From NCBI RefSeq assembly GCF_900100975.1, contig NZ_FNFX01000001.1, positions 623,820 through 687,819 of the forward strand: 64,000 nucleotides of DNA. The letters run 5' to 3'. The stretch's first letter is position 1, and each line of letters begins with the position of its first letter. Made by a program: the position numbers and the translations under genes. The notes under the pieces are model-generated. The model saw nothing but the letters and a program-made list of their open reading frames with translations, ran no database searches and was not told the DNA's origin. This document shows positions 14,301 to 29,304 of the stretch, in pieces. The stretch comes from Methylophilus rhizosphaerae. GTDB taxonomy: Bacteria > Pseudomonadota > Gammaproteobacteria > Burkholderiales > Methylophilaceae.

Positions 14301-14811
14301 AGGCGCTGACAAGATAGCCCAAGTACAGTGGCAAATGGAAATACAACTCCAGCGCGTAGCCCATGATCGCCGCTTCCAGCGAAAACAGGATGAACGTGAA
14401 CGAGGCATACACAAACGAAGAAATGGTCGAACCGATATAGCCAAAACCGGCACCGCGGGTCAGCAAATCCATATCCAGCCCATACTTGGCGGCGTAATAG
14501 CTGATAGGCAAACCCGTCAGGAAGATGATCAGGCCCACTGCCAGGATTGCCCATAGTGCATTCGGGAAACCGTAGCTCATGGTAATTGAGCCGCCAATCG
14601 CCTCCAGAACCAGGAATGAAATCGCGCCGAGTGCGGTATTGGAGACGCGTAAAATCGACCATTTACGGAAAGCGCGTGGCGTGTAGCGCAGCGCATAATC
14701 CTCAATGGTTTCGTTCGCCACCCAGTTGTTATAGTCGCGGCGGATTTTGACGATACGTTGTATCGGTTCGGCAGTGATTTCGCTGGATAATCCGGGAGAC
14801 GGCGTAGACAA
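11374..14811 (-). CDS. NCS1 transporter fused to a hybrid histidine kinase with Cys-rich insert
   Basis: An 1145-residue sensor. Residues about 40-490 form a 12-helix NCS1 (nucleobase/allantoin/hydantoin:cation symporter) module. Residues 511-548 carry nine cysteines (C511, C514, C526, C534, C537-C539, C544, C548), probably a metal site. Two more helices (about 580-600, 625-643) and a coiled coil lead to the HisKA domain with H698 (GISHELRTP), an HATPase domain (N816, DTGPGIAP, GGTGLGLT) and a receiver (D941, D985, K1036). A helical tail (about 1080-1145) resembles an Hpt bundle but shows no clear Hpt histidine motif. The start is TTG with AAAGGG seven bases before it. The layout parallels CbrA, which fuses an SSS transporter to a kinase. 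Position next to urease/urea genes suggests sensing of urea, an amide or a purine breakdown product; the ligand is not known. Confidence 0.9.
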   Translation of the reverse strand: MSTPSPGLSSEITAEPIQRIVKIRRDYNNWVANETIEDYALRYTPRAFRKWSILRVSNTALGAISFLVLEAIGGSITMSYGFPNALWAILAVGLIIFLTGLPISYYAAKYGLDMDLLTRGAGFGYIGSTISSFVYASFTFILFSLEAAIMGYALELYFHLPLYLGYLVSALIVIPLVTHGVTLISRIQMITQPIWIALMFLPFVAILHADPGVLSRLSTFAGMSVNGGHFNWLMFGAATAVGVALIPQIGEQVDFLRFMPVRNKGNYWRWNLGVLLAGPGWVILGMLKMLAGALLAYLVFNRDMPLSSAVNPTHMYWIGFEHVFSNHQVALAVTALFVCVSQIKVNMTNAYAGSLAWSNFFARLTHSHPGRIVWVAFNVMIAIVLMELNVFQALEEILGLYANIAIAWIAAVVADLMINKPLGLSPKGIEFRRAYLYDINPVGVGAMFIASAVSVAAYTGVMGVLAQSFSTFISLFTALLLSPLIAWLTKGKYYLARQRPMDLQPSATRQCVICEREYEVNDMAHCPAYGGAICSLCCCLDARCHDACKPQARLSAQWEALNKKFLPQRLWPHLNGGVAHFLLLMVIAMILFGATIGLIYLHDALTIGREYPELMRHFRSGYLKVFVALLFLGGIVAWWLVLTSSSRRVAQEESNRQTGLLLEEIESHKKTDIQLQKARQLAEEANWAKSRYITGISHELRTPLNSILGYAQLLTNDDSIPEHRKQAIRTISRGGEHLLSLIESTLDIARIESGKMTFDVKPLHFPEFISQMVSMFEIQAQNKGLAFYFEQSGNLPEYVRADHKRLMQILVNILGNAVKFTTKGSVTFRVSYAREIAQIDIEDTGPGIAPNEVEKIFEPFERGSAADVVGIGGTGLGLTISKLLTQLMGGEMQFDSVLGQGTRFEIRLFLPQIRETAHLSKKAVRQRIGYEGQVRTILVVDNEEVDRELLRNILQPLGFIVHEAGNGQACVNQYQLVHADAILMDLAMPVMDGWEAAYVIRQVHHAQLPIAIISANAYDRSLDNQARIPAHDFFVKPVNLEEVLDWIGHELNLTWRYADSPESRPALALGQKTVPVSERESIPVTLLENLAQFARMGYVKGVREVLATLDREHAQHHQPFISALQQAMERFDFARLQHLIEEYTE

Positions 14812-14893: not shown

Positions 14894-14938
14894 ATATTAC
14901 AGCCTGCATACAAATCAATCATTACGTTAATTGACGTA
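14894..14938 (-). promoter_or_regulatory. Proposed activator-dependent promoter of the kinase/regulator operon
   Basis: The 16-bp near-palindrome TACGTCAATTAACGTA (minus strand, 14938-14923) is followed after exactly 23 nt by TAATAT (14899-14894), a good -10 hexamer, with no good -35. The motif would be centred near -43, as for activators overlapping the -35 box. The same arrangement is found upstream of the porin gene (29260-29304). The long leader (about 75 nt) ends at the TTG start at 14811. Confidence 0.6.
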
Positions 14939-14973
14939 GCAGTGAAAGACAAGAAACATGACAGGCCTTTACA

Positions 14974-15003
14974 TTAAAAAAGCGGACCAGGTTGATCCGC
15001 TTT
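14974..15003 (-). terminator. Intrinsic terminator of the urease/nickel permease operon
   Basis: On the minus strand AAAGCGGA and TCCGCTTT pair around a 9-nt loop and are followed by a T-run (TCCGCTTTTTTAATG). It lies 27 bp after the HupE stop codon, so the long nitrogen operon probably ends here and the kinase operon has its own promoter. Confidence 0.75.
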
Positions 15004-15029
15004 CCACCCATGCAAGTATTGAAGTTGGG

Positions 15030-15593
15030 TCAGGCCAACAACCAGTAAGCCCCCAGGCCCATCATCATGCCACCCAGCAATTGCGTGGTGGCTTTCAGCC
15101 ACGGCTGTTGCTGGCGACCCAGCATCCAGCCCAGGCCATGCAAAGTACCGGTTGCCAGCACCATCCCGACCAGAGAACTCCAGCTTTGACCTAGCTCAAC
15201 ACCGTGCACATAACCATGCACAGCGGCAACCAACCCCACCAGGCTAAACTGTGCCCATTTGGATAACTCCACCTTGGCGAGCAGCAAGCCACCCATCACC
15301 AGCACACTGGCTGCCACCAGCACCTCGGCCAATGACATCGGCAACCAAACCATGGCAAGTACCGCAAACGCCGCCATCACAGCCACGAACAGCACCGGCA
15401 ATTGCCAGCCTTGCTGTGCAGGTCTGCGGGCTGCCCAGATCCCCAGTGACAACATCACCAGCATGTGATCCCAGCCGGTCATGGGATGCAGAAATCCGCT
15501 CGCAAACCCAGTTTGCAGATCGTGGCCGGGATGTGCGTATGCAGCCCCTGACAGCAAGCTAGCCGCCAACCCTAAAAAAATGCTTTTTTTCAT
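15030..15593 (-). CDS. HupE/UreJ-family nickel permease
   Basis: A 187-residue membrane protein of the HupE/UreJ family, which imports Ni2+ for hydrogenase or urease. A signal-like first helix ends at AYAHPGHD, and the N-terminal HPGH plus HPMTGWDHMLVM motifs are the conserved metal-binding elements; HGYVHG follows later. About six transmembrane segments are present. GGAG lies 9 bases before the ATG. It follows ureG in the same direction, so it is taken as the urease nickel supplier (UreJ role) rather than a hydrogenase protein. Confidence 0.88.
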   Translation of the reverse strand: MKKSIFLGLAASLLSGAAYAHPGHDLQTGFASGFLHPMTGWDHMLVMLSLGIWAARRPAQQGWQLPVLFVAVMAAFAVLAMVWLPMSLAEVLVAASVLVMGGLLLAKVELSKWAQFSLVGLVAAVHGYVHGVELGQSWSSLVGMVLATGTLHGLGWMLGRQQQPWLKATTQLLGGMMMGLGAYWLLA

Positions 15594-15688
15594 AAAATTT
15601 TCTCCGTTTTATCGTCGCATGATTGAAGGCCTAAACCACGCTTTTTTGTATTGCCATGCAATTAATATTCCCTATTCACCTAACCTGG

Positions 15689-15708
15689 ATACCGGCCTGC
15701 GCCGGTAT
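15689..15708. repeat. Short hairpin repeat with ACCGG/CCGGT arms
   Basis: ATACCGGC-CTGC-GCCGGTAT, an 8-bp stem with a 4-nt loop, in the ureG-hupE gap. It resembles the GC-rich 'CCGGcctgcGCCGG' intergenic hairpins often scattered in betaproteobacteria; its copy number in this genome cannot be judged from one window. Confidence 0.5.
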
Positions 15709-15727
15709 GACGATGGCAGAATAAATG

Positions 15728-15832
15728 AGCGCGCAGGATAAAGTGCAAGGCGCCCAGCACACAGAAACCGCAATGTACTCAAAGTACATGAGGATTGCGC
15801 GTACCGCGCAACGCCGCAATTTGCCCGCGCAG
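15728..15832. repeat. Interspersed palindromic element, copy A (ureG-hupE gap)
   Basis: An imperfect inverted repeat of about 105 bp. It has GC-rich outer arms, a GCAAGGCGC block on the left, a CGCAACGCCGC block on the right and a central hairpin ATGTACT-CAA-AGTACAT. It shares the order of blocks (GCAAGGCGC, GTAC..GTAC, GCAAC.CCGC) with a second element at 19758-19859, so both are probably members of one family of small mobile or regulatory repeats. No ORF is present. Confidence 0.6.
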
Positions 15833-15837
15833 CCACT

Positions 15838-16491
15838 TCACAACATCAAGCCTTGTTTTTCGATAAAGCTGACTATATCCTCTAGCCCTTTATTCGTCTT
15901 CAGGTTAGTGAACACAAAAGGCCGTTGCCCGCGCATACGTTTGGCATCCTGGTCCATCACTTCCAGCGACGCACCTACCATAGGCGCAAGGTCTATCTTG
16001 TTAATCACCAGCAGGTCGGACTTGGTGATACCAGGGCCACCTTTACGCGGGATCTTCTCGCCCGCAGCTACATCAATGACATAGATGGTCAAATCGGATA
16101 ACTCAGGGCTAAAAGTCGCGGCCAGGTTATCGCCACCACTTTCGACAAATACGATATCCAGGGTCTGGAAGCGTTTGCTCAACTGGTCAACCGCTTCCAG
16201 GTTCATCGATGCATCTTCACGGATCGCGGTATGCGGGCAGCCACCGGTTTCCACACCGATAATGCGCTCTGGCGACAACGCTTCATTACGGGTTAAAAAC
16301 TCGGCATCTTCCTTGGTATAAATATCATTAGTAACGACGGCAATGTTGTAAACCTCGCGCAAACGCTGACATAAGGCCAGCGTCAATGCAGTTTTTCCGG
16401 AACCGACCGGGCCGCCGATGCCGACACGCAAAGGCTCTTTGTAGTTGGTGACTACTGGTGTGGGTGTCTCAAATTGGGTATGTATTTTCAT
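15838..16491 (-). CDS. ureG: Urease accessory GTPase UreG
   Basis: UreG, 217 residues, is the GTPase that energises nickel insertion into urease. The start at 16491 (MKIHTQFE) overlaps the ureF stop by four bases (ATGA); upstream in-frame codons would lie inside ureF. Visible motifs are the P-loop [14 protein letters not shown], the nickel-binding CPH in [11 protein letters not shown], and NKIDLAP. Confidence 0.96.
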
Positions 16492-17171
16492 GATCTGAAT
16501 AATCTGCTGTATTGAGTTTCGTGTTGGCACCCGGCAATGCTGAGTAAAGGGTTAAAGTTGCTCATCGCATCATCCGGCAACTGCATGGCGGTTTCTATCA
16601 CTTGCGGCAAACACTCACCTAAAGTGAGCAAGATAGTCTGTCCGGCCACCTGCCCGAGCGGCACTGCTTTCATGGCAGCGCTGGCCTGGTTCTCCAGCCA
16701 GCCCCAGGCATAGCCATGTAGCATCTGCTCAGGCGCAATTTGCCAGTGATGGGCAATCGCAGCATACACAGTCGGGAAAGCAGGCGACACCAGCGTATTC
16801 AGTTGCGCAACCAGCTCAGGCGGAATCTCTTTTAATTCGCTAAGCAGCCGGCGCAGGGAATACCCCATTTGCCTTGTTTCAGCCCAGCCCTCGGCGGTAT
16901 CGCGACCGGCCTGGTAAAAGCTGTCCCATTCAGTCACAAGTGCCAGGTCACCGGCCTGCCAGGCCTGGTAAAGCCGATATAACACTGGCAACTCAAAGCG
17001 CGCATGGTAAACCTGCAAGCTGTCGCTTATCCAGGCTTGCGCCGAGGCCACATCCTTTACTTCGCCGGACTCGATTGCCCATTCCAGGCCTTGCGAATAG
17101 CAATACGCGCCTACCGGCAACAGTGGGCTTGCTAGCTGCAATAACCGGCTCAGCGCGAGTGCGTTAGCCAT
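16488..17171 (-). CDS. ureF: Urease accessory protein UreF
   Basis: UreF, 227 residues, forms the UreDFG activation complex with urease apoprotein. The start at 17171 ([19 protein letters not shown]) matches family N-termini and overlaps the ureE stop by 8 bp; a longer frame reading back through ureE is rejected. Family motifs are [16 protein letters not shown] and the C-terminal [20 protein letters not shown]. Confidence 0.95.
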
Positions 17172-17661
17172 GTGCGCGGCCACGGCCTTTTGGGCGCAAG
17201 GATTGCAGGTCATCATCGTCATGACCATGACGGTGACCGCCACCGTAAGCGCCGGCTTCCGGCTCAAATGGCGCGTCGACTTCACTCACTTGCATGCCCA
17301 AACCTAAAAGCATATCCCTGAGTACATAATCCTGCTCCAGCCTTAACCAGCCATCGCCTATCTGTAACGGTACATGCCGGTTGCCCAGGTGGTAAGCCGC
17401 ACACATCAGGTCACGCGGTGTTGGCGCAATCACGTTATACACCGGCTCTTGCGCCGCCACAATTTGCACCACCAGGCTGCCATCTTCCGACTTCAATAAA
17501 TCGCCACCACGAAGAATGGTTCCTCGTGTCACAAACAGTCCGGCCTCTTTGCCTGAAGCCAGCGTCACGCGCAACCTGCTCTTCTGCCTTAAATCAAAAG
17601 GCAATTCCAGAGTGTCATCAATATGGCCGCTGACAGTGATACGTTCGGTTAAATGAATCAT
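17164..17661 (-). CDS. ureE: Urease accessory nickel metallochaperone UreE
   Basis: UreE, 165 residues, delivers Ni2+ to the UreG/urease complex. The start at 17661 (MIHLTERI) is two bases after the ureC stop. The N-terminal peptide-binding domain is followed by the metal-binding domain ([15 protein letters not shown]), and the tail has a short nickel-binding stretch, HRHGHDDDD, near residue 150. Confidence 0.95.
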
Positions 17662-17663
17662 GA

Positions 17664-19367
17664 TCAAAATAAAAAGTAACGTTGCGCCATCGGCAACACT
17701 TCGGCAGGCTCGCATACTAATGGCATGCCATCGGCCAGCACCTCGTAAGTTTCCGGGTCCACATTGATCTCTGGCATCCAGGTATTGTGCACCATGTCAG
17801 ACTTCTTCACGTCCCGCGTGCCTTTGACCGCCACCAGTGGCTTTTGCAACCCAAGGGCTTTTAACTCCGGATTATCCAGCCCGGCTTGTGAAACAAATGT
17901 CACCGCCGTTTTCAGCCCGCCACCATACGAGCCGAACATAGGACGGTAATGCACCGGTTGCGGTGTGGGAATAGACGCATTCGGATCGCCCATCGCTGCG
18001 GCGGCAATCATGCCGCCTTTGATAATGGTAAAAGGTTTGACACCGAAGAATGCGGGTTTCCATACCACCAGGTCGGCCAGCTTGCCGACTTCAACAGAGC
18101 CCACCACATGCGACACCCCATGCGTGATCGCAGGGTTAATGGTGTATTTGGCGATATAGCGCTTGATACGGAAATTGTCGTTGCCGGCGGCATCTTCTGC
18201 CAACGGGCCACGCTGTATTTTCATTTTATGCGCGGTCTGCCAGGTACGGATAATCACTTCACCGACACGGCCCATGGCCTGTGAGTCAGATGACATCATG
18301 GAGAATGCGCCCAGGTCATGGAAAATATCTTCCGCAGCAATGGTTTCGCGACGGATACGGCTTTCGGCAAACGCGATATCTTCGGCAATCGCCGGATCCA
18401 GGTGATGACAGACCATCAGCATATCCAGGTGCTCGTCTATGGTATTGACGGTGAATGGCCGCGTCGGGTTAGTGGAAGATGGCAGCACATTCGGGTAGCC
18501 CGCTGCCTTGATGATATCCGGCGCATGACCGCCACCGGCCCCTTCGGTATGGAAGGTATGGATAGTGCGGCCTTTGAAAGCACCTATAGTCGTTTCTACA
18601 AAGCCGGATTCATTCAGCGTATCCGAGTGAATTGCGACCTGCACATCCATTTCGTCTGCCACGCTTAAACAGTTATCAATCGCCGCTGGCGTCGTGCCCC
18701 AGTCTTCATGCAATTTAAGACCGATAACGCCTGCACGCACCTGTTCACGTAAGGGTTCCGGCAAACTGGCATTGCCTTTCCCCAGAAAGCCCAGGTTCAT
18801 GGGAAAAGCATCTGCCGCCTGCAACATGCGGTGGATATGCCATGGCCCGGGTGTACAGGTGGTCGCAAACGTACCCGTCGCAGGGCCGGTGCCGCCGCCT
18901 ATCATGGTGGTCACACCAGACATCAAGGCTTCTTCAATCTGTTGCGGACAGATAAAGTGGATATGCGTATCAATGCCGCCTGCGGTGATAATCATGCCTT
19001 CACCGGCAATCACTTCGGTGCCGGCACCAATGGCAATCGTCACGCCCGGCTGGATATTCGGATTACCGGCTTTGCCGATGGCAGAAATATAACCGCCCTT
19101 GATGCCGATATCGGCTTTGACGATGCCCCAGTGATCAATAATCAAAGCATTGGTGATCACGGTATCGGCCACTTCAGCCGCCAACCCCTGCCCTTGGCCC
19201 ATACCGTCACGAATGACCTTACCGCCACCAAACTTCACTTCTTCACCATAGATAGTGAAGTCTTTTTCAACCTCTATCCACAATTCGGTATCGGCCAGCC
19301 GTACTTTGTCGCCCACGGTTGGGCCGAACATTTCAGCATAAGCGCGTTTATCCATGTTGACTGTCAT
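17664..19367 (-). CDS. ureC: Urease alpha subunit
   Basis: UreC, 567 residues, is the catalytic subunit that hydrolyses urea to ammonia and carbamate. The bi-nickel site is intact: H135 and H137 (THIHF), K218 for carbamylation ([10 protein letters not shown]), H220 and H247, plus the mobile-flap MVCHHLD and the aspartate ligand in [12 protein letters not shown]. It lies between ureB and ureE, with spacing of 23 bp and 2 bp. Cytoplasmic. Confidence 0.98.
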
Positions 19368-19390
19368 TGTTATTCCTTATCGCTTTGCCA

Positions 19391-19699
19391 TTATTTCAAG
19401 GCACCCATGACTTTCGCGGCAAAGCCATATACTTCGCGCTTACCGGCCAATTTAACCAGTTGCACGGTACGCGTCTGGCCTGGCTCGAAGCGCACCGCAG
19501 TGCCCGCTGCAATATTCAGGCGAAAACCGTACGCCAGTTCGCGGTCAAATGACAACGCTTCATTGGTTTCGTAAAAATGATAATGCGACCCCACCTGGAT
19601 GGGTCTGTCACCTTTATTGGCCACATCCAGCGTCACTGTTTCACGTCCTGTGTTTAATTCGATGTCGCCTGCTGCGACCTGCATTTCGCCGGGAATCAT
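19391..19699 (-). CDS. ureB: Urease beta subunit
   Basis: UreB, 102 residues, a structural subunit of the (UreABC)3 enzyme. It starts [16 protein letters not shown] and carries the conserved [15 protein letters not shown]. It is separate from ureA by 163 bp, an unusually large gap for these genes, which is filled by a palindromic repeat element. Confidence 0.96.
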
Positions 19700-19757
19700 T
19701 GATCACTCCAATGAGTATTGTTTTGTTTGATTAGTTACTTCACGCCATCATGCTCAA

Positions 19758-19859
19758 GCGTGGTGATGCAAGCGCGGAGGGCAAGGCGCACAACCGAAGA
19801 CAGTACACTGAGTACGGCAAAAGCGTGCAACACCGCCATCTGCGCTTGCATCACCACGC
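19758..19859. repeat. Interspersed palindromic element, copy B (between ureA and ureB)
   Basis: An element of 102 bp with perfect 18-bp terminal inverted repeats (GCGTGGTGATGCAAGCGC and its complement). Its inner part is related in layout to copy A at 15728-15832 (GCAAGGCGC block, central GTAC-N6-GTAC). It contains no ORF. It interrupts the ureA-ureB junction, where it would form a long hairpin in the mRNA and could alter relative expression of the subunits. Confidence 0.75.
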
Positions 19860-19862
19860 CCT

Positions 19863-20165
19863 CTAGGGAATGGGGTGATGGACAGTGACTAACTTGGTCC
19901 CGTCAGGGAAAGTAGCCTCCACCTGTATATCCGGAATCATTTCCGGCACACCTTCCATCACTTCATCACGTGCCAGTAAGGTCGTGCCATAACTCATCAA
20001 CTCAGCGACGGTTTTGCCATCGCGGGCCCCTTCCATGATCGCTGCCGAGATATAAGCCACAGATTCGGGATAATTCAGTTTTAATCCACGTGCTTTGCGC
20101 CGCTCGGCCAGCAAGGCTGCGGTAAATATCAATAATTTATCTTTTTCTCTAGGGGTTAATTCCAT
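19863..20165 (-). CDS. ureA: Urease gamma subunit
   Basis: UreA, 100 residues, the smallest structural urease subunit. The N-terminus [20 protein letters not shown] and the internal [20 protein letters not shown] are characteristic. It follows ureD by 33 bp. Confidence 0.97.
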
Positions 20166-20198
20166 GGGTCGACTCTTTGACGATATGGGTGACTCAAA

Positions 20199-21065
20199 TC
20201 AGGTATTCCAGATACGTGGCCTGACGGCGGCTTTTTGATAATACCACGGTCGTAATATCTGCCAGCACTGTTCAAAATACTGCCTGGCCTGCTGTGAAGC
20301 ATTGCCGACATACCGTATGCACAGCACTTCCGGTAATGCCGTGATACCGGTTTTGGCATCTGCGATCACTATCGCGCGGCAAGCTTGCAATACTTCAGCA
20401 GGCACTTTTCCGGCACAGACCAGAAATGTACCGAACACCACCGCATTGCCTAGCCCAACACGGCTGGCTTTCACCAGGTCATCGGCCTGCATCCTTGCAC
20501 GTTCATTCCATAGTAACTGGCCATTACGCGAAATACGCTGGTTCAACTGGTAAAGCCCGCGCTGCCAATGCTCCTGTTGCGCCTGCCGTCCCAGGCAGGC
20601 AATGTCCCAGGCCGCCAGGGTAGCGTCTGCGGCCAACTGAATGTCCGCATTAAACCCGACTTCTGCCGCATCAAACAGAATATTCTCTTGTGGCAGCCAT
20701 TCCAGGCCACTGCCAGCCTCAAGCTGGAATTGCAGTGTTTGTGTCGCCTTGGTGCCATTGGCTTTGTACCATTTACCCGCCCCTGGCGTAGTCAGCAATG
20801 CGCGTGCACCTGCCGCTACATTGACGTTCAGCTGCAATGCGTCACCCCCGGCGACACCACCGGGCGGATGTACCACGACTGCATGGCAGATATCCTCACC
20901 CTCGGGATGCAGGCTTTTTTGTACAACCAACGGACCATGATGCAAGCGATGGGCCAGGTAGGAGCGCGTATCACGCCTGGCAAAACCCAACTCCAGCCTG
21001 GCTTGCCAGTGTTTTGCTGTTAACTGTGCGGGCGGCAAGGTGACCGTATGCTTTAAATCATCCAT
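20199..21065 (-). CDS. ureD: Urease accessory protein UreD
   Basis: UreD, about 288 residues, is the scaffold that binds apo-urease and recruits UreF and UreG. Family motifs are seen: a Trp-led start (HWQARLELGFARRDTRSYL), GPLVVQKSLHPEGEDICH and the diagnostic HPPGGVAGGD. The ATG at 21065 (MDDLKHTV) is chosen; a GTG six codons upstream at 21083 is also possible and neither has a strong Shine-Dalgarno. It is the first ure gene after urtE. Confidence 0.93.
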   Translation of the reverse strand: MDDLKHTVTLPPAQLTAKHWQARLELGFARRDTRSYLAHRLHHGPLVVQKSLHPEGEDICHAVVVHPPGGVAGGDALQLNVNVAAGARALLTTPGAGKWYKANGTKATQTLQFQLEAGSGLEWLPQENILFDAAEVGFNADIQLAADATLAAWDIACLGRQAQQEHWQRGLYQLNQRISRNGQLLWNERARMQADDLVKASRVGLGNAVVFGTFLVCAGKVPAEVLQACRAIVIADAKTGITALPEVLCIRYVGNASQQARQYFEQCWQILRPWYYQKAAVRPRIWNT

Positions 21066-21109
21066 ACCGGCATCATGCCACACGCGCTACCATTTTGGGC
21101 AGCAGACGA

Positions 21110-21799
21110 TTACACAGACAGATAGCTTTTCACCTTGGCTGCATCGACATTGTCGCGGGTATCTTCATGGATAAAACGGCCTTTATCGATGACAATGATA
21201 CGGTCCGCCACTTCCATGGTGAAGCTTAACACCTGCTCGGAAACGATGATGGTGATCTCACGCATCTTGCGGATTTCATTAAGCACCTTGGCGATGTCTT
21301 TGATGATGGATGGCTGAATGCCTTCGGTCGGTTCATCCAGCAGCAATACTTTCGGATTGGTCACCAGCGCACGTGCAATCGCCAGTTGCTGTTGCTGACC
21401 ACCTGAAAGGTTACCGCCCTTGCGTTTGCGCATTTCATGCAGCACCGGGAACAGGGCAAAAATATCATCCGGAATTTCACCACTGGATGATTTTTCCAAG
21501 CCTGTCTCGATATTCTCCTGTACCGTCATATTCGGGAAGATCCAGCGACCTTGTGGCACGTAGGCCAGCCCTTTATTCACACGTTCATGCGTGGCAGACC
21601 CTTGCAGATCGACACCATCTACAGTCGCCTTGCTTGCCTTACTCGGCAAAATGCCCATCAGGGATTTAAACAGGGTAGTTTTACCCATGCCGTTACGGCC
21701 CATGATGGCCAGCGTTTCATTTTTGTTGGCTTTGAAGTTAAGGCCATGAATCACTTGGCTCTGGCCATAACTCACCTGCAAATTCTCAATTTCAAACAT
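21110..21799 (-). CDS. urtE: Urea/short-chain amide ABC transporter ATPase UrtE (FmdF-like cluster)
   Basis: A 229-residue LivF-like ATPase, one of two for the high-affinity urea transporter. It has Walker A GRNGMGKTT, signature LSGGQQQQLAIARAL and Walker B VLLLDEPTEGIQP. It is followed 44 bp later by ureD, which links urea uptake to hydrolysis. Confidence 0.94.
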   Translation of the reverse strand: MFEIENLQVSYGQSQVIHGLNFKANKNETLAIMGRNGMGKTTLFKSLMGILPSKASKATVDGVDLQGSATHERVNKGLAYVPQGRWIFPNMTVQENIETGLEKSSSGEIPDDIFALFPVLHEMRKRKGGNLSGGQQQQLAIARALVTNPKVLLLDEPTEGIQPSIIKDIAKVLNEIRKMREITIIVSEQVLSFTMEVADRIIVIDKGRFIHEDTRDNVDAAKVKSYLSV

Positions 21800-21825
21800 G
21801 CTGTGCTCCTCTAATGGCCCAGTAA

Positions 21826-22569
21826 TTAATGACCCAGGTAAACTTCAATGACTTTTTCGTCGGCCTGCACCTTTTCCATAGGCCCTTCGGCCAGGATCTT
21901 GCCCTGATGCAACACCGTGACCTTGTGTGCGATTTTCTTGACGAATTCCATGTCGTGTTCAATCACAATCACAGAGCGGTTCTGGCAGATGCGGTTGAGT
22001 AATTCAGCCGTCTGGTCACGCTCTTTTGCACTCATGCCAGCAACTGGCTCATCCAGCATCAACAATTCTGGCTCTTGCATCAGCAACATACCGATTTCCA
22101 GCCATTGTTTCTGGCCGTGGCTGAGCAAGGCAGATTCCATATCTAGGAATTCAGTCAGCATGATGTCTTCCGCCACCTTGCGGACGCGGTCTTCCACTTC
22201 CTTGGTACGCTTGAACGTCAGGCTGCCAAACACACCACGGCCTTTCGGGTAAGACACTTCCAGGTTCTGGTACACCGACAGATTTTCGTAAATCGACGGG
22301 TTCTGGAACTTGCGGCCTACCCCCGAGCGCACGATTTCGTGCTCGGAAAGTTTGGTCAGCTCGGTGTTGTTGAACTTGATCGACCCGGCGGTGGATTTGG
22401 TCTTGCCGCAGATCAGGTCCAGCACGGTGGTCTTGCCGGCACCGTTGGGGCCTACCAGCACACGCAGCTCATTTTTGTCGATATACATGGTGAGGCTATC
22501 CACCGCTTTAAAGCCATCGAAGGAGACGGTCAAATCTTCTACAGCCAAGACGAAGTCTGTATTACTCAT
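21826..22569 (-). CDS. urtD: Urea/short-chain amide ABC transporter ATPase UrtD
   Basis: A 247-residue LivG-like ATPase. It has Walker A GPNGAGKTT, the family's modified signature LLSHGQKQWLEIGM (SHGQ in place of SGGQ, typical of UrtD) and Walker B LLMLDEPVAGM. Its start overlaps the urtC stop by four bases. Confidence 0.94.
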   Translation of the reverse strand: MSNTDFVLAVEDLTVSFDGFKAVDSLTMYIDKNELRVLVGPNGAGKTTVLDLICGKTKSTAGSIKFNNTELTKLSEHEIVRSGVGRKFQNPSIYENLSVYQNLEVSYPKGRGVFGSLTFKRTKEVEDRVRKVAEDIMLTEFLDMESALLSHGQKQWLEIGMLLMQEPELLMLDEPVAGMSAKERDQTAELLNRICQNRSVIVIEHDMEFVKKIAHKVTVLHQGKILAEGPMEKVQADEKVIEVYLGH

Positions 22570-23870
22570 GCTTCTGCTCCTCTCATTTTGTTACTGTCGA
22601 TCGCAGGCGCTGGCTCAGTTTGCTTGGGCGCTGCTTTCTTGCGTGTTGCTTTCTTGATGACCGCATCGTTAGTTTTCGCGGCCAGGGTGGTTTCAGGGGT
22701 TGTCTCGGTAAGTACTGCTTGTGCTTCACCCTCTGCAATACTTACCTCAGGCTTTTTTACCGGCTCGGCTTTGTCTTTGAACCAGCCATATTTGGTTGCA
22801 TATTTATCCCAGATACCAGCCAGGCCGCTTGGGAAGAACATCACTACCGAGATAAACAGGCCACCCATCAGGAACAACCACATTTCAGGATAGGTTTCCG
22901 AGAATACCGTTTTACCGTAATTCACCAGCAAGGTGCCGTAGACCGCACCAATCAGCGAAGCACGGCCACCCACTGCACAGAAGATCACCATTTCGATCGA
23001 AGGCACGATACCGACGAAGGAAGGCGACATAAAACCGACTTGCAGGGTAAACATCGCACCGCCGACTGCTGACATCATGGCCGCCAGGCAGAAGATAAAG
23101 ATCTTGAAGTTGGAGACGTCGTAGCCGGAGAAACGCACACGCTCTTCCTTGTCGCGCATTGCCAGCAACAACATGCCGAACTTGCTGCTCATGATGTATT
23201 TGGACAGGAAGATGGCACCGAACAACAGCAGGCCATTCACAAAGTACAGGATGTATTTGGCAGAGTCAGTACGGATATCCCAGCCCAGCATGGTGCGCAA
23301 GTCTGTCATGCCGTTTACACCGCCGGTATAGCCTTGCTGGCCAACGATCAGGATACTCAGAATCAAGGCAATGGCCTGGGTGATGATAGAGAAGTACACG
23401 CCACCAACCCGGCGTTTGAACATGGCGTAACCGATGATATAGGCGAACAAGGCAGGAATGGTCAGCACCGCAAAGATAGTGAATGGCAAGCTCTTGAACG
23501 GCTCCCAGAACCACGGCAAAGCGGTGAGCTGGTTCCAGTCCATAAAGTCAGGAATGCCTGGCGTAGACTGGATTTTGGTGCTTAGCGGATCAGAGGCTTC
23601 CAGCTTGAGGAACATCGCCATGGCATAACCGCCGAGGCCGAAGAAGATACCCTGGCCTAAACTCAGGATACCGCCATGGCCCCACAACATCACCAGGCCC
23701 ACTGCCACAAAAGCGTAAGTCAGGTATTTACCGATCAGGTTAAGGCGGAAGATATCTACGCCCAGTGGCAACACAACGAAGATGATGGCGGCCAGCACAG
23801 CCAGACCTATCACTCCTTCCTTACCACCCAGTACAGGGCTGGCTTTCATTTTTTCCCATAATGTCATCAA
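22566..23870 (-). CDS. urtC: Urea/short-chain amide ABC transporter permease UrtC with extended tail
   Basis: A 434-residue LivM-like permease with about ten transmembrane helices. The family core ends near residue 365. The remaining 65 or so residues are an Ala/Lys/Thr/Pro-rich, low-complexity tail that includes the basic stretch VIKKATRKKAAPKQ. The tail is probably cytoplasmic and is unusual for the family. It overlaps urtD by ATGA. Confidence 0.93.
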   Translation of the reverse strand: MMTLWEKMKASPVLGGKEGVIGLAVLAAIIFVVLPLGVDIFRLNLIGKYLTYAFVAVGLVMLWGHGGILSLGQGIFFGLGGYAMAMFLKLEASDPLSTKIQSTPGIPDFMDWNQLTALPWFWEPFKSLPFTIFAVLTIPALFAYIIGYAMFKRRVGGVYFSIITQAIALILSILIVGQQGYTGGVNGMTDLRTMLGWDIRTDSAKYILYFVNGLLLFGAIFLSKYIMSSKFGMLLLAMRDKEERVRFSGYDVSNFKIFIFCLAAMMSAVGGAMFTLQVGFMSPSFVGIVPSIEMVIFCAVGGRASLIGAVYGTLLVNYGKTVFSETYPEMWLFLMGGLFISVVMFFPSGLAGIWDKYATKYGWFKDKAEPVKKPEVSIAEGEAQAVLTETTPETTLAAKTNDAVIKKATRKKAAPKQTEPAPAIDSNKMRGAEA

Positions 23871-23980
23871 GATTTCTCCTCTGTTGATGCGTTGATTCTA
23901 GTGCGACAGATGTAAACAATTAATACGTCTATTTACTTATGGCGGCATATGAGAAATCTGCTCACACGCCGCGAACTCTG

Positions 23981-24898
23981 TTACTTACGCAGTTTGGAGG
24001 CAAACAGCCCTTCCGGTTTCATCATCAGGATGGTGACAATGACGAGCAAGGTAGACACCTTACCCATGGAACTGGTCATAAAGAATTGCAGGATTGATTG
24101 CGCCTGGGCAATACCGAACGCAGAGGCAATCGTACCCACGATGCTGGCTGCACCACCAAAGACCACCACCATAAAGCTGTCCACGATATACAAAGTACCC
24201 GTGGTCGGACCGGTAGAGGCAATCGTGGTAAACGCTGCACCTGCGATGCCGGCAATGCCGCAACCAAGGGCAAAAGTCACGCGGTCAACTTTGGCAGTAT
24301 TAATCCCTACTGCGCCAGCCATGGTACGGTTCTGCACCGTGGCACGCACACGCAGGCCCCAGCGGGATTTGTACATAAACATGTAGACACCGAAAGTCAC
24401 CAGCGCAGCCAGTACCATCACAAATACACCATTAATTGGGATATCAATATCCGGCGTCGGTTTGAAAGAACCCAGCATCCACTCCGGCAATTCGGCACTC
24501 ACTTCTTTGGCGCCAAAGCTGGAACGGAAGATTTGCTGCATGACCAGGCTCAAGCCCCAGGTAGCCAGCAAGGTATCCAGAGGCCGCTTATACAGATGCC
24601 GGATCATGATGAACTCAATAAAGTAACCGACTGCAAATGCCAGCAGGAAGGCAATCGCAATGGCGAATACGAAGTAATAATTCGTGAACCCGTAACTGGC
24701 TGCCACTTTTGAAATGAGCACGGTGGTGTATGCGCCTATGGTCATAAACTCGCCATGCGCCATGTTAATTACACCCATCTGCCCGAAAATAATCGCGAGA
24801 CCAAGTGCCATCAGCAGCAACACTGTAAACATGCTCAGGCCGGAAAAGCCCTGCATCACCACAATATTGCCTATATCTGCCATCGAATAACCAAACAT
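23981..24898 (-). CDS. urtB: Urea/short-chain amide ABC transporter permease UrtB
   Basis: A 305-residue LivH-like permease. The start at 24898 (MFGYSMADIGN) is set by AAGGAG seven bases upstream. It has the family segment LGLAIIFGQMGVINMAHGEF and about eight transmembrane helices. In Methylophilus the equivalent gene was described as part of the fmdDEF short-chain amide/urea transporter. Confidence 0.94.
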   Translation of the reverse strand: MFGYSMADIGNIVVMQGFSGLSMFTVLLLMALGLAIIFGQMGVINMAHGEFMTIGAYTTVLISKVAASYGFTNYYFVFAIAIAFLLAFAVGYFIEFIMIRHLYKRPLDTLLATWGLSLVMQQIFRSSFGAKEVSAELPEWMLGSFKPTPDIDIPINGVFVMVLAALVTFGVYMFMYKSRWGLRVRATVQNRTMAGAVGINTAKVDRVTFALGCGIAGIAGAAFTTIASTGPTTGTLYIVDSFMVVVFGGAASIVGTIASAFGIAQAQSILQFFMTSSMGKVSTLLVIVTILMMKPEGLFASKLRK

Positions 24899-24948
24899 AT
24901 CGGTCTCCTTATACAACTTTCTATTAGATTTTTACTACTTGTGCCAAA

Positions 24949-24975
24949 CGGTAGCCGGATTTCCCCCGGCTACCG
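24949..24975 (-). terminator. Hairpin between urtA and urtB, probable attenuator
   Basis: A perfect 10-bp stem (CGGTAGCCGG / CCGGCTACCG) with a 7-nt loop, lying about 40 bp after the urtA stop. No long T-run follows. Such hairpins after binding-protein genes protect the upstream mRNA or partly terminate, giving more binding protein than permease. Confidence 0.6.
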
Positions 24976-25014
24976 CTTCAGCTTTTAAGCCACTAGGTAA
25001 CGACTAGCCGCGAA

Positions 25015-26253
25015 TTACTGGTAGCCTTTTGGAAATGGATCAGGTTTGATGTAGCCGGAGGTGTAAACCACTTTAGCCTGGCCATCTTTACCCCACTGAC
25101 CGATACGCAGTTTGGTCGTCAGGTGATGGTTGGCTTCTACAGTCACAGGGCCTTCTGGTGCATCTTTGAACTCGTAGCCAGGCAATGCTGCTTGAACCTT
25201 GTCTACGTCGAAGCTGCCAGCGCGTTCAACCGCTGCTTTGTACAACCATGGGCCCAGGTAAGCGGCTTGTGTCACGTCGCCGATCACAGCATCTTTACCC
25301 CAGCGCTTTTTGAATGCTTCAACAAATTTCTTGTTAGCTTCATTGTCTTGCGACTGGAAGTATTTCATTGCTGAGTAGAAACCAGCCAGGTTCTCACCAC
25401 CGATACCCAATACTTCATCTTCGGTCACGGAGATGGTCAGCATGGTTTGTTTACTTGAGTTCAAGCCGGCTGCGTTCAACTGCTTGAACCAGGCTACGTT
25501 ACTGCCGCCTACCACCGCTGCGTAGATCACGTCAGGTTTTTTCAGTTTGATCTTGTTGATCACAGAACCAAATTGCGTGTCACCCAAAGCGATGTATTCT
25601 TCGCCAACCACTTTGCCACCCAGGTGCTGCTCGATGTGTTTACGGGCGATTTTCATGGAGGTACGTGGCCAGATGTAGTCAGAACCGATCAGGTAAAAAG
25701 TTTTCGCTTTTTTCTCTTTGGCAATCCAGTCCAAGCCGGCAAGAATCTGCTGGGTCGCTTCCTGGCCTGTGTAGAAAACGTTCTTGGATTGTTCCAGACC
25801 TTCATAGAAAGTCGGGTAGAACAGCAAGCCGTTGTCTTTTTCAAACACTGGCAAGGCAGCTTTACGTGAAGCGGATGTCCAGCAACCCATCACAGAAGCC
25901 ACTTTGTCTTTTTCCAGCAACTTCTTCGCTTTTTCAGCAAAGGTTGGCCAGTCAGACGCACCGTCTTCCTGCACTACTTCGATCTTGCGGCCCAGGATGC
26001 CGCCCATGGCATTAATTTGCTCAATCGCCAGTTTTTCCGCCTGGATAGAGCCGGTTTCACTGATCGCCATGGTACCGGTGGCGGAGTGCAGGATACCGAC
26101 TTTCACGGTGGTGTCAGTCACTGCCAGGCCTGTGGTATTCACTTTGGCGGTTGGGTAGTCAGCCGCAAATGCGTGCCCGGTAACGAGACCCGCTGCCATC
26201 ATTGCGCCCAGCATTGCGCCTTTGATAAAACCCCTTCTGTTCAAGGTACTCAT
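25015..26253 (-). CDS. urtA: Urea/short-chain amide ABC transporter substrate-binding protein UrtA
   Basis: A 412-residue periplasmic binding protein of the UrtA/FmdD group. The start at 26253 (MSTLNRRGFIKG) has AAGGAG upstream. The leader carries a twin-arginine motif (NRRGFIK) before a hydrophobic stretch and an AFA-AD cleavage site, so Tat export is likely. The mature protein shows the family features VGILHSATGTMAISE and VGCW-like MGCWTSASRKA. It lies between fmdB and urtB. Confidence 0.94.
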   Translation of the reverse strand: MSTLNRRGFIKGAMLGAMMAAGLVTGHAFAADYPTAKVNTTGLAVTDTTVKVGILHSATGTMAISETGSIQAEKLAIEQINAMGGILGRKIEVVQEDGASDWPTFAEKAKKLLEKDKVASVMGCWTSASRKAALPVFEKDNGLLFYPTFYEGLEQSKNVFYTGQEATQQILAGLDWIAKEKKAKTFYLIGSDYIWPRTSMKIARKHIEQHLGGKVVGEEYIALGDTQFGSVINKIKLKKPDVIYAAVVGGSNVAWFKQLNAAGLNSSKQTMLTISVTEDEVLGIGGENLAGFYSAMKYFQSQDNEANKKFVEAFKKRWGKDAVIGDVTQAAYLGPWLYKAAVERAGSFDVDKVQAALPGYEFKDAPEGPVTVEANHHLTTKLRIGQWGKDGQAKVVYTSGYIKPDPFPKGYQ

Positions 26254-26342
26254 TACATCTCTCCTTTGAAAAATCAATTAACTTCAAAAATTAAATCGAA
26301 AAATGAAACCGTAGTTACGTACTGCATTCATGCGGATGACGG

Positions 26343-26681
26343 TTAATGCCCTATCATCCAGGGACGTGCTGTTTTCTTGGTTTGCATTTGCATCGGCAGC
26401 TTGCCGGTATCCTCATTCACCTTGGTGGTGGTTTTACAGGTGTGTGCCCCGGTGCAACCACAACTGGAACGGCGGCCGCTGCGAGGCTCATGCGCAGACT
26501 TCTCGTTGCGTTCATGCGCGGACCGTTGCTGCTTGTCCATGATGGCCAGTTTGGGCACCGACAGGATGCGCGGGCTGATCGCTCCACAGTATTCGCAATC
26601 GGCGGGCAAACTGGATTCACTCATTTTGCGTAGCGCGGTGAACACGCCACAACTGTCACACTCATATTCGTAAAGAGGCAT
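26343..26681 (-). CDS. fmdB: FmdB-family zinc-ribbon protein
   Basis: A 112-residue protein of the FmdB putative regulatory family. The start at 26681 (MPLYEYECDSCG) is preceded by AAGGAAAGGG. The N-terminal zinc ribbon has the pairs CDSC and CEYC (about residues 8-11 and 28-31). The tail is basic and contains a second cysteine group, SSCGCTGAHTC. In Methylophilus methylotrophus the homologue lies next to formamidase and was proposed to regulate it. Confidence 0.88.
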   Translation of the reverse strand: MPLYEYECDSCGVFTALRKMSESSLPADCEYCGAISPRILSVPKLAIMDKQQRSAHERNEKSAHEPRSGRRSSCGCTGAHTCKTTTKVNEDTGKLPMQMQTKKTARPWMIGH

Positions 26682-26697
26682 CTGTACCCTTTCCTTG

Positions 26698-26719
26698 CAG
26701 GTTTGCCTGGGCAAACCTG
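26698..26719 (-). terminator. Hairpin between fmdA and fmdB
   Basis: CAGGTTTGCC and GGCAAACCTG form a tight stem between the formamidase stop and the fmdB Shine-Dalgarno. There is no T-run. It probably protects the fmdA message or attenuates downstream expression, making formamidase the more abundant product. Confidence 0.45.
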
Positions 26720-26753
26720 GACTGATGAAAACGTTTTTCTTGTTAAACCCGGT

Positions 26754-27977
26754 TTAAGTCGATGGCGCCACATCAATGCCTGGCGGCACCATGATCTTCG
26801 GCCCGTCGGCATTCGGCCGGATATCAAACTCGAAGATCTCGGTCGGTATCCACAAGGTAGCGCAGGCATTAGGAATATCGACGATGCCGCTGATATGCCC
26901 TTCTACCGGTGCAGTCCCAAGAATCGCCACCGCCTGCTCACCGCTGTAACCAAATTTCTTCAGGTACTCGATCGCGTTCAGGCAAGCCTGGCGGTAGGCC
27001 ACATGGACATCCAGGTAATGTTGCTTGCCGGCTTCATCCACTGAAATACCTTCAAAAATCACATAATCACGGTAAGTCGGTGTGATCGGGCTTGGTTGGA
27101 AGATCGGGTTCTTGATACCGTATTTCTTCACGCCGTCCTTAATCAGGCTGACCTTGATATCCAGGTAACCGGCCATTTCAATCGCGCCGCAGAAGGTGAT
27201 CTCGCCATCGCCCTGCGAGAAGTGCAGGTCACCCATGGAGAGGCCGCCATCTTTCACATAGACCGGGAAGTACACTTTGGAGCCTTTGGTCAGGTTCTTG
27301 ATATCACAGTTACCACCGTGGTCACGTGGCGGCACGGTACGTGCACCTTCCAGCGCCGCCTGTTTGGCAGCATCGCCAGTCAGCTTGCCCATCACGGCTG
27401 ATTGTGGCTCTGGTGGCAGTGCCAGCGCCGGCACACGGTCAGGGTCGGTGGCGATCAGCGCCGCTTCACGCTCATTCCATTTTTCCAGCAACTCGCGTGA
27501 TGGCAGGCAACCGATCAAACCCGGGTGCATGATGCCGGCGTAACGTACTTTCGGCACATGACGGGAGGTGGTATACACGCCGTGGAAATCCCAGATCGAT
27601 TTGCTTGCTTCAGGGAAATGGTCAGTCAGGAAACCGCCGCCATTTTCTTTGGCAAACAGGCCATTAAAGCCCCATTGCTGGTCATCAAAGGTACCCACAT
27701 CGAGAATCTCTACCACCATCAGGTCACCTGGCTCGGCGCCTTCGACACCGATCGGGCCGCTCAGGTAGTGCACCTGGGTCAGGTCCACGTCACGGATATC
27801 GTTGGCACTGTCGTTGTTGCCGATCTGGCCGCCAGTCCAGTCCATACACTCGACACGGAACTCATCGCCAGGTTTGACCATGGCAATCATCGGCAAGTCC
27901 GGATGCCAACGGTTATGAATCTGACCGTCTTGTTCCCATGGCTTTTTATCCAGATCCAGTTTCACTATTGTTTTCAT
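26754..27977 (-). CDS. fmdA: Formamidase (acetamidase/formamidase family)
   Basis: FmdA, 407 residues, hydrolyses formamide to formate and ammonia, so it provides nitrogen, and formate for oxidation. The start at 27977 (MKTIVKLDL) has AGGAG nine bases upstream. Family features are NRWHPDLPMIAMVKPGDEFR, DWTGGQIGNNDSANDIRDVD, GDLHFSQGDGEITFCGA and the glycine-rich middle region. It sits between the porin and fmdB, the arrangement known from Methylophilus. Cytoplasmic. Confidence 0.95.
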   Translation of the reverse strand: MKTIVKLDLDKKPWEQDGQIHNRWHPDLPMIAMVKPGDEFRVECMDWTGGQIGNNDSANDIRDVDLTQVHYLSGPIGVEGAEPGDLMVVEILDVGTFDDQQWGFNGLFAKENGGGFLTDHFPEASKSIWDFHGVYTTSRHVPKVRYAGIMHPGLIGCLPSRELLEKWNEREAALIATDPDRVPALALPPEPQSAVMGKLTGDAAKQAALEGARTVPPRDHGGNCDIKNLTKGSKVYFPVYVKDGGLSMGDLHFSQGDGEITFCGAIEMAGYLDIKVSLIKDGVKKYGIKNPIFQPSPITPTYRDYVIFEGISVDEAGKQHYLDVHVAYRQACLNAIEYLKKFGYSGEQAVAILGTAPVEGHISGIVDIPNACATLWIPTEIFEFDIRPNADGPKIMVPPGIDVAPST

Positions 27978-28033
27978 TACACTCATCTCCTAATTAAGAT
28001 AAAGTTGGGTGAGAAAGGGTTATAAGCTGTTGA

Positions 28034-29203
28034 TTAGAATTGCATCTGCAAGGCGACTTTGACGAAATTAGTATCAGAAGCAGCTGAATAATCTGTTTTG
28101 CCGTAGGTTGCGGTAATCATTGCGTTGTATGGTGCGATCACATAGCTGGCACCAATTTCATATTGCTTGGTATCTGCTGAAGTGCGGACGTTGGTTGCCG
28201 CGGTGGTCGTACCATCTGCATCAAACTTCTGATAGCGGATAAATGGTTTGAATTTTCCCCAACCGATTTCTTGCTGGAACAGATAACCAACCGCAGCGGA
28301 ATAGGCTTTACCCTGTTCGGCCAGAATGGCATTGTCAGTGTCGTAGTCGTAGTAAGCCGCTTCAACCGAGAATGTGCCAGGGCCAACATCTTTCTTCTCC
28401 AGCAGGAAATCGACACTGTATGAGGTGTAATCACCCACCGTCCCCAGGCCACTCACCACACCGTCTTGCTTGTAGCGACCAGCAATACCAATGGCGAGAA
28501 TATCCTTGGCACCGAAGTAGCTACCGGTACCGTAATAACCCGGTTCGGCATCCCAGAAGTCATACTGTACGCGACCTGCATACATCAGCTTGTCTTTGCT
28601 ACCTGCCGCTTCGGATTGCGCGCCCACACCGCTAAAGCGGAAAATGTTGTCACCTTCAAAGGCACCAAATGATACGGCCAGGTGATCTTCCAGGAAGCTG
28701 GTGACCATAGCCACACCTTCGTCGCGGCCAATCACACCGCCGTTCCAGCCATAGCGTGAAGCAATCCCGTTCCAGTAACCACCACCCATGGAGTAGTAAG
28801 GGCCTGCCATGTTGGAGCGATCACTTGGAGAAAGGAAACGCCCGGCCCAGATCGCCACTTCAGGTGTCAGCTGAAACTGTACGTTGGCATCAATCACTTC
28901 AACGTTGCTGCCAACATCACTGCCGCCACCGGATTTCTCAGTATTCAGCATACCCTTGATATATTTGTTGAAAGAACCTGACAAATACAAACGGGCACTA
29001 TCCAGCACAAAGTCATTGGAGCGGTCTTTACCGTTGGCGGCTGCATCTTCCACTGATGAGTAGCTGGTGATAAAACCGAAACCAGCACTGATATACTTGT
29101 CTTCACCAAAGCTGATGGTGGCACCCGCATTTGCCAATTGCGCACCCAGGCCACATGCCATGATGACCGCCGTATGCAAGGCATATCTATTCAAGTTCTT
29201 CAT
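28034..29203 (-). CDS. Outer-membrane porin, FmdC-like
   Basis: A 389-residue exported beta-barrel protein. The start at 29203 (MKNLNRYALH) is preceded by AAAGGGAG. A signal peptide ends at QLANA-G; the mature sequence is rich in alternating aromatic/polar strands (ATISFGEDKYISAGFGF) and ends in a terminal Phe (VKVALQMQF), as outer-membrane barrels do. As the first gene of the amide operon it probably admits short amides and urea, matching FmdC of Methylophilus, but this rests on position and general barrel features. Confidence 0.85.
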   Translation of the reverse strand: MKNLNRYALHTAVIMACGLGAQLANAGATISFGEDKYISAGFGFITSYSSVEDAAANGKDRSNDFVLDSARLYLSGSFNKYIKGMLNTEKSGGGSDVGSNVEVIDANVQFQLTPEVAIWAGRFLSPSDRSNMAGPYYSMGGGYWNGIASRYGWNGGVIGRDEGVAMVTSFLEDHLAVSFGAFEGDNIFRFSGVGAQSEAAGSKDKLMYAGRVQYDFWDAEPGYYGTGSYFGAKDILAIGIAGRYKQDGVVSGLGTVGDYTSYSVDFLLEKKDVGPGTFSVEAAYYDYDTDNAILAEQGKAYSAAVGYLFQQEIGWGKFKPFIRYQKFDADGTTTAATNVRTSADTKQYEIGASYVIAPYNAMITATYGKTDYSAASDTNFVKVALQMQF

Positions 29204-29259
29204 CAAAAACTCCCTTTCTCGTTAAATTTAAAAATCACAATCAATCAAAACTTGCAGCC

Positions 29260-29304
29260 AGATTACCGAGAGGGAGGGAGTGGACAAATACGTCAAATTG
29301 CGTA
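29260..29304 (-). promoter_or_regulatory. Proposed activator-dependent promoter of the porin/fmd/urt/ure operon
   Basis: The 16-bp near-palindrome TACGCAATTTGACGTA (minus strand, 29304-29289) is followed after exactly 23 nt by TAATCT (29265-29260), a -10 candidate. Thirteen of 16 positions match the site at 14923-14938 when both are read in the same relative orientation, and the spacing to the -10 is identical. It is the best candidate binding site for the LuxR-type regulator at 10445-11377. Confidence 0.6.

Follow-up and report, generated by a model that had tools for sequence, protein, structure and literature searches.

Two copies of a 16-bp inverted repeat, each at the same distance from a hexamer resembling a -10 element, occur in the stretch of Methylophilus rhizosphaerae DNA analysed here, hereafter the window (the whole 64,000 nucleotides). 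One copy (box 1) precedes the genes for a hybrid sensor histidine kinase with a transporter-like domain and a NarL/FixJ-type response regulator; the other (box 2) precedes the genes for a porin, a formamidase, a urea transporter, and urease. The preferred reading, held at a probability of roughly 0.85 with the mechanism proposed below included, is that the kinase and the regulator activate the urea/amide genes by way of these two boxes. The features concerned are as follows.

14923 to 14938, minus strand: box 1, an inverted repeat of 7-2-7 form (TACGTCA-AT-TAACGTA) that precedes the kinase operon
14894 to 14899, minus strand: -10-like hexamer TAATAT, 23 nucleotides (nt) from box 1; predicted start at about 14887
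29289 to 29304, minus strand: box 2, an inverted repeat of 7-2-7 form (TACGCAA-TT-TGACGTA) that precedes the porin-fmdA-urt-ure genes
29260 to 29265, minus strand: -10-like hexamer TAATCT, 23 nt from box 2; predicted start at about 29253
11374 to 14811, minus strand: hybrid sensor histidine kinase, with an N-terminal part modelled as an NCS1 fold, a Cys-rich linker, HisKA, HATPase, and a receiver domain
10445 to 11377, minus strand: response regulator, with a receiver, a middle alpha/beta domain, and a LuxR/GerE helix-turn-helix whose recognition helix is RTINKHLEH

Read on the forward strand, positions 14923-14938 are TACGTTAATTGACGTA and positions 29289-29304 are TACGTCAAATTGCGTA. An earlier note on this DNA had given the letters and coordinates of both boxes correctly, as well as the distance to TAATAT and TAATCT, which is exactly 23 nt in each case; the agreement it reported, 13 of 16 positions, holds with one box turned round, but in promoter direction (TACGTCAATTAACGTA and TACGCAATTTGACGTA) 12 of 16 positions are alike. 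If the hexamer is the -10 element, the box spans -51 to -36 and is centred at -43.5. The -35 region is poor, consisting of TTT followed by variable bases in the set of fmdA/porin promoters described below. TTGACG, inside the box, was considered as a -35 element but not adopted, because its distance to the hexamer is 25 nt, which is too far for a sigma-70 promoter.

The outer bases of the box are not specific when taken alone: TACG-N8-CGTA occurs three times in the window against 0.23 expected, and at 20 places in the 2.76-Mb genome as a whole. The third copy in the window (at 62432) is without a TANNNT hexamer 23 nt away, whichever strand is read. Once the inner bases, the spacer, and the hexamer are included (TACGYHANNTDRCGTA-N23-TANNNT), the genome has two sites, which are box 1 and box 2, and the reversed-pattern control has no match in it. 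The earlier note had been wary of random genome hits away from nitrogen genes; none came from the strict pattern, and the additional sites in other members of the genus precede aliphatic amidase genes. An origin of the boxes in chance, or in shared ancestry of two promoters with no common regulator, would fit the frequency of the bare pattern and the existence of a close look-alike that is poorly kept in relatives (TACGTCAGATTACGTA, with the hexamer TTTAAT at 23 nt; G000:C5:169280, locus L004). It fits neither the restriction of the strict pattern to the two named sites nor the absence of a full-core box before urtA in all 45 kinase-negative genomes scored, and the conservation of the box against weakly conserved flanks across several families is strongly contrary to it, so that it is given next to no credence. 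The look-alike itself sits between genes named by eye as LrgB-like and efflux-type. Its TTTAAT is kept in the eight relatives whose match spans it fully (10 were aligned), but the whole box consensus is kept in none of the 10, L361 retaining only the outer TACG-N8-CGTA, and it was not counted as a third target.

Conservation was measured first within the family, in 150 Methylophilaceae genomes. The N-terminal part of the kinase was found in 50 and FmdA in 44, with the kinase present in 43 of the latter. The combined pattern of box, 23-nt spacer, and hexamer occurs in 48 of the 50 kinase-positive genomes and in one of the 100 kinase-negative genomes (G133, which is 88% complete and has fmdA); the reversed pattern gives eight hits across all 150. 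At the fmdA/porin promoters the box is present in every genome with enough upstream sequence (43/43), always 23 nt before TANNNT, mostly TAATCT or TAAGCT, and the 44th genome (G145) has a site of the same kind on another contig. The box is 136 to 185 bases before fmdA in 11 genomes, a distance into which a porin gene would not fit. With near-identical flanks removed (29 sequences remaining), the box carries 1.84 bits per position and the hexamer 1.76, compared to 0.28 and 0.40 for the flanks. The kinase promoters have the box in 35 of 48 genomes, 34 of them with TANNNT at 23 nt; the other two kinase-positive genomes (G121 and G146) are cut by contig ends and were unscored. There the box carries 1.52 bits and the flanks 0.14 and 0.30 (34 sequences), values that come from 37 scored segments and may include G027 and G102, which lie inside an upstream gene and are excluded from the 35.

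Outside the family, one alignment scan with the kinase N-terminal part, from which the best 80 loci were kept, recovered relatives sharing 58 to 94% identity, from Oxalobacteraceae, Rhodocyclaceae, Comamonadaceae, and Methylophaga. Part of these loci have the box before urtA or before a porin-urtA run, at 23 nt. When urtA was sought in 38 genomes of other families, mostly genomes in which no promoter box had been seen earlier, 36 had a close orthologue, and in 35 of the 36 it is preceded by the full TACG-N8-CGTA core, with a spacer of exactly 23 nt to YANNNT. At the kinase promoters of three Methylophaga genomes and of one related gammaproteobacterial genome, the spacer measures 24 nt. An order-wide sample of 250 genomes contained 42 with the kinase (E-value up to 1e-100) and 67 with urtA (up to 1e-150), for which 66 upstream regions were scored, the 67th beginning at a contig end. 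A full-core box precedes urtA in 10 of 21 kinase-positive genomes versus none of 45 kinase-negative genomes, with the hexamer at 23 nt in eight of the 10. A looser whole-genome pattern is present in 20 of the 42 kinase-positive versus 6 of the 208 kinase-negative genomes, and the reversed pattern in 4 and 12, respectively. Two genomes of family f22 (G335 and G371), kinase-negative at 1e-100, each have two TACGCAATTTTGCGTA sites with TATAGT at 23 nt and may hold a more distant relative of the system.

The aliphatic amidase gene amiE (NCBIfam aliphatic amidase, E-value up to 1e-100) is present in 9 of the 150 Methylophilaceae genomes, and the box precedes it in seven: all seven in the genus of the window and neither of the two outside it. 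These boxes match 13 or 14 of 14 positions and lie 23 nt from TAAANT, and in none of the seven genomes do amiE and the kinase share a contig at a distance of 100 kb or less. The genome of the window has no such amidase at an E-value up to 1e-100. In the amiE leaders (L351-L359), about 150 to 30 bases before the gene, an inverted repeat followed by a T run was seen by eye, which is like an attenuator or antitermination site; Rfam gave no match above gathering on the four amiE loci searched. In genus g11 the box precedes a gene for a CynX/NimT-like major facilitator superfamily transporter in G010 and G030 (L144 and L145), and similar sites are found in G043 and G053, where the adjoining genes were unread. 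L145, the one transporter tested, falls short of the cut-off for the family, and its gene is a possible further nitrogen-compound target.

The link from the boxes to the LuxR-type regulator, assumed in the earlier note, is backed by covariation between recognition helix and box. The residue equivalent to position 281 of the regulator, which we take to correspond to a base-contacting lysine of NarL, varies by group and is Asn (as in RTVNKHLEH), His (RTVHKHLEH), or Lys (as in ATVKKHLER). CC occupies bases 5 and 6 in 0 of 54 half-sites of the Asn group, 3 of 8 of the His group, and 35 of 40 of the Lys group (51 genomes). This count covers 51 of the 80 loci, namely those in which a full regulator was seen along with a full-core box at the promoter of a urt, porin, or fmdA gene. 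Omitted from it were loci with no such box or regulator, including L224 (no box) and L234, whose porin gene has TGCGTCATGTGACGTA, an Asn-type near-match, together with six genomes analysed separately, the loci of Methylophaga, and the majority of Methylophilaceae, for which L172, L192, and L199 stand as representatives. In further systems CC was found in 14 of 14 Lys-type and 1 of 24 Asn-type half-sites. The former derive from G235 and the first copy of G386 (four half-sites) and from five of six extra genomes (10 half-sites); in the sixth, L283 (TACGCCATGTGTCGTA), the regulator was unread, placing it outside the count. The latter derive from 12 systems: G276, G279, G387, G388, G374, G194, G361, G190, G317, G310, and the second copies of G386 and Curvibacter (L232). 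The box of G387 and G190 is not at 23 nt from a hexamer. G233 is not among the 12, being the same genome as L197 of the main count, and G303 and G349 (helix unread) and G264 and G296 (no regulator recovered) were left out.

Two genomes carry two copies of the system. In G386 a regulator with ATVKKHLER accompanies TACGCCCTCCGGCGTA at urtA, and one with RTVNKHLEH accompanies TACGTTAATTGACGTA beside the second kinase (L372 and L373); in Curvibacter (L232) the first copy is of the Lys type and the second, beside a TACGTTGATTGACGTA box, is of the Asn type. Two copies with different helices and, in G386, different boxes suggest insulated circuits. G+C content was rejected as the cause of the link between helix and box: among 16 loci of 57 to 68% G+C both kinds overlap, and Oxalobacteraceae loci with a G+C content of 63 to 67% still have the Asn type, so that base composition does not account for the link. 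The helix groups are few, hence the number of independent changes is small. Since the inner bases of the box change with the recognition helix, also within one genome, the box is tied to the regulator.

This bears on the alternative that the box is bound by some other regulator, for example FmdB, taken as the putative positive regulator of fmd genes, and that the kinase and response regulator are mere neighbours. FmdB is encoded within the operon, and a putative positive regulator is named among the fmd cluster products in the available part of PMC10781810. However, changes in the box go along with changes in the response regulator's recognition helix, even between two copies in one genome, and five of the 20 order-wide genomes with both kinase and box pattern (G194, G235, G279, G361, and G374) are outside the 110 of 250 that have an FmdB match (E-value up to 0.001). 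FmdB as the binder is disfavoured because of these box genomes with no FmdB match, and a role for another regulator is considered very improbable.

Some observations weigh against activation of the urea/amide genes by the kinase and regulator through the boxes. G172 keeps the hexamer before urtA with the box absent, the only exception of the 36 genomes of other families. Eleven of the 21 order-wide kinase-positive genomes are without a urtA box (for G349 only 301 bases were available), although five of these (G194, G303, G310, G349, and G361) have a box beside the kinase gene instead. The looser pattern is found nowhere in 22 of 42 kinase-positive genomes, and it is found in the 6 of 208 kinase-negative genomes mentioned above (reversed control, 12/208). 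The box is absent before the kinase gene in 13 of 48 genomes, and autoregulation is therefore not universal; of the losses in gene-keeping relatives that the earlier note had thought damaging, these are real, but none was seen at the 43 fmdA/porin promoters. Two of the nine amiE genes are without a box, and the Asn-type system of G279 has a CC half-site. A repressor site at the same place would look similar, and the genome counts are not independent, the genomes being related.

For the sensor, the earlier label “NCS1” is right by fold but not by Pfam. In kinase residues 1-660 no Pfam family was found beyond DUF2627 at an E-value of 1.8, and no STAC domain was seen there either, the sensitivity of the STAC model to this linker being unchecked; the N-terminal part has neither an NCS1 Pfam match nor a PDB sequence match at E-values up to 10. 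Fold comparison was therefore used, based on an AlphaFold2 model of the N-terminal part with a predicted local distance difference test score (pLDDT) of 73.9. The model matches CodB (Foldseek E-value 4e-9; VIA Z 33.5, root-mean-square deviation (rmsd) 3.5 over 396 residues) and Mhp1 (Z 29.1, rmsd 4.1 over 431 residues), and the next matches listed have Z 23.3 and below. Choline and sialic acid symporters score lower (Z 20.2 to 21.5), and the LeuT fold is common to all. As judged from the model, NCS1 is right for the sensor domain as a fold, with no recognisable family sequence profile. A Cys-rich linker (kinase residues 511-548) between the transporter-like domain and the kinase has invariant Cys at 511, 514, 526, 534, 537, 538, 544, and 548; it is strongly conserved, has no Pfam match, and is possibly metal-binding.

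The regulator has PF00072 and PF00196 above cut-off, and its helix-turn-helix matches NarL (1je8) at an E-value of 2e-4. Its model comprises the receiver, the middle alpha/beta domain of about 110 residues, and the LuxR-type helix-turn-helix, with StyR and FixJ included among the Foldseek matches. Assignment to the NarL/FixJ type is based on the receiver and GerE domains and on the 7-2-7 site at the 43 fmdA/porin promoters and at 35 of the 36 urtA promoters of other families.

The remaining genes of the locus are listed below.

28034 to 29206, minus strand: porin, FmdC-like by position; match to NCBIfam porin_ExtI below cut-off
26754 to 27986, minus strand: fmdA, formamidase (NF045496)
26343 to 26714, minus strand: fmdB, FmdB-family zinc ribbon protein
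21110 to 26277, minus strand: urtA, urtB, urtC, urtD, and urtE, urea ATP-binding cassette (ABC) transporter
15030 to 21083, minus strand: urease genes and HupE/UreJ, whole run
20199 to 21083, minus strand: putative ureD, by position only
19863 to 20165, minus strand: UreA, by model
19391 to 19699, minus strand: UreB, by model
17664 to 19367, minus strand: UreC, by model
17164 to 17715, minus strand: UreE, by model
16488 to 17285, minus strand: putative ureF, by position only
15838 to 16530, minus strand: UreG, by model
15030 to 15593, minus strand: HupE/UreJ, by model

Neither 20199-21083 nor 16488-17285 has an NCBIfam match at an E-value up to 1e-30. On the minus strand the order is porin, fmdA, fmdB, urtA-E, urease, and HupE/UreJ (29206 down to 15030), then kinase and regulator. 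The porin (from the below-cut-off match and position), formamidase, FmdB, and urea/amide ABC transporter thus occur together as an fmd cluster, and the same run of porin, formamidase, FmdB, and urea-type ABC transporter genes is found in the fmd cluster of M. methylotrophus. For that cluster the available part of PMC10781810 names only a “putative positive regulator,” whereas a kinase-regulator pair and its site are proposed here.

In the proposed mechanism, a signal would be sensed by the hybrid kinase, the NCS1-fold part of which probably binds urea or a short amide, or reports its passage; because urtA is the target shared outside the family, urea may be the common signal. The regulator, presumably phosphorylated by this kinase, would bind both boxes as a dimer, its LuxR/GerE domain reading the 16-bp 7-2-7 repeat TACG(C/T)(A/C/T)A-N2-T(G/A/T)(A/G)CGTA. 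Since the site lies beside a poor -35 region, a dimer bound at -51 to -36 could recruit sigma-70 RNA polymerase to the TAATNT -10 element in a class II-like activation. Box 2 would then drive the porin, formamidase, urea transporter, and urease genes, and box 1 the kinase and regulator genes, giving positive autoregulation. The fmd cluster of M. methylotrophus is induced by formamide and urea according to the part of PMC10781810 available, which fits the proposed mechanism. Induction of urt and urease genes under nitrogen fixation, given for Azoarcus olearius RNA sequencing in the accessible text of PMC8467165, is compatible with it and not a test of it.

The closest known system is the CrbS/CrbR (MxtR/ErdR) acetate system of Pseudomonas and Vibrio with its ACTU motif, which has the same combination of a transporter-like domain with a hybrid kinase and a LuxR-family regulator. 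As described in the available part of PMC5715377, CrbR acts at an imperfect inverted repeat at -52 to -36 of the acs promoter, where four point mutations abolished activity, and the position predicted here, -51 to -36, is nearly the same. CrbS has an SLC5 domain and a STAC linker, while the sensor here is closest to NCS1 (CodB and Mhp1) and has a Cys-rich linker; CrbR targets acs and actP and not urea/amide genes, and the box sequences differ. The CrbR site also bears on whether the regulator might bind the box but repress, for example by covering the -35 region, with the signal relieving repression. The site does touch the -35 region, and derepression is equally compatible with the published induction by formamide and urea. 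Against this stand the spacing of exactly 23 nt (43/43 fmdA/porin and 34/35 kinase promoters), a constancy that suggests a rigid contact geometry, the poor -35 region, and activation by CrbR from its own inverted repeat. By geometry and analogy activation is favoured, and repression is thought improbable.

The NarL/NarP sites likewise consist of two inverted heptamers 2 bp apart (16 bp) read by a GerE-type DNA-binding domain. In the available part of PMC4549865, positions -40 to -49 of the napF promoter hold a 7-2-7 site, and an engineered NarL site is TACCCCT-AA-AGGGGTA, to be compared to the heptamer TACG(C/T)(A/C/T)A found here. The latter departs from the NarL heptamer TACCCCTAAAGGGGTA, having G as the fourth base and mostly A as the seventh, and the regulator has its extra middle domain in comparison to NarL/NarP. 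The CbrA/CbrB histidine transceptor, in the portion of PMC13022988 available, also joins a LeuT-fold transporter domain to a histidine kinase, but CbrA has SLC5 and STAC and other targets. The GrtK/GrtR ammonia system, according to the accessible part of PMC12918730, comprises a PilS-like kinase and a Fis-type regulator and is unrelated.

No report of this kinase-regulator pair or of the box was found among the literature matches listed. Transporter-like domains known to be fused to histidine kinases include SLC5 (PMC5715377 and PMC13022988, in the parts available) and Amt, and the present sensor would add an NCS1-like domain to these. A wider proposal, to which an even chance is given, is that the NCS1-fold transceptor kinases of Betaproteobacteria and Methylophaga form a family of dedicated urea/short-amide sensors, in which the box has diverged together with the recognition helix and two copies form separate insulated circuits. 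The natural variants of helix and box, with two copies in one genome, would serve as a test set for DNA choice by NarL/FixJ-type regulators. For the uptake of urea and short amides in a large group of environmental bacteria, the analysis thereby puts names to a regulator, its DNA site, and the probable sensor.

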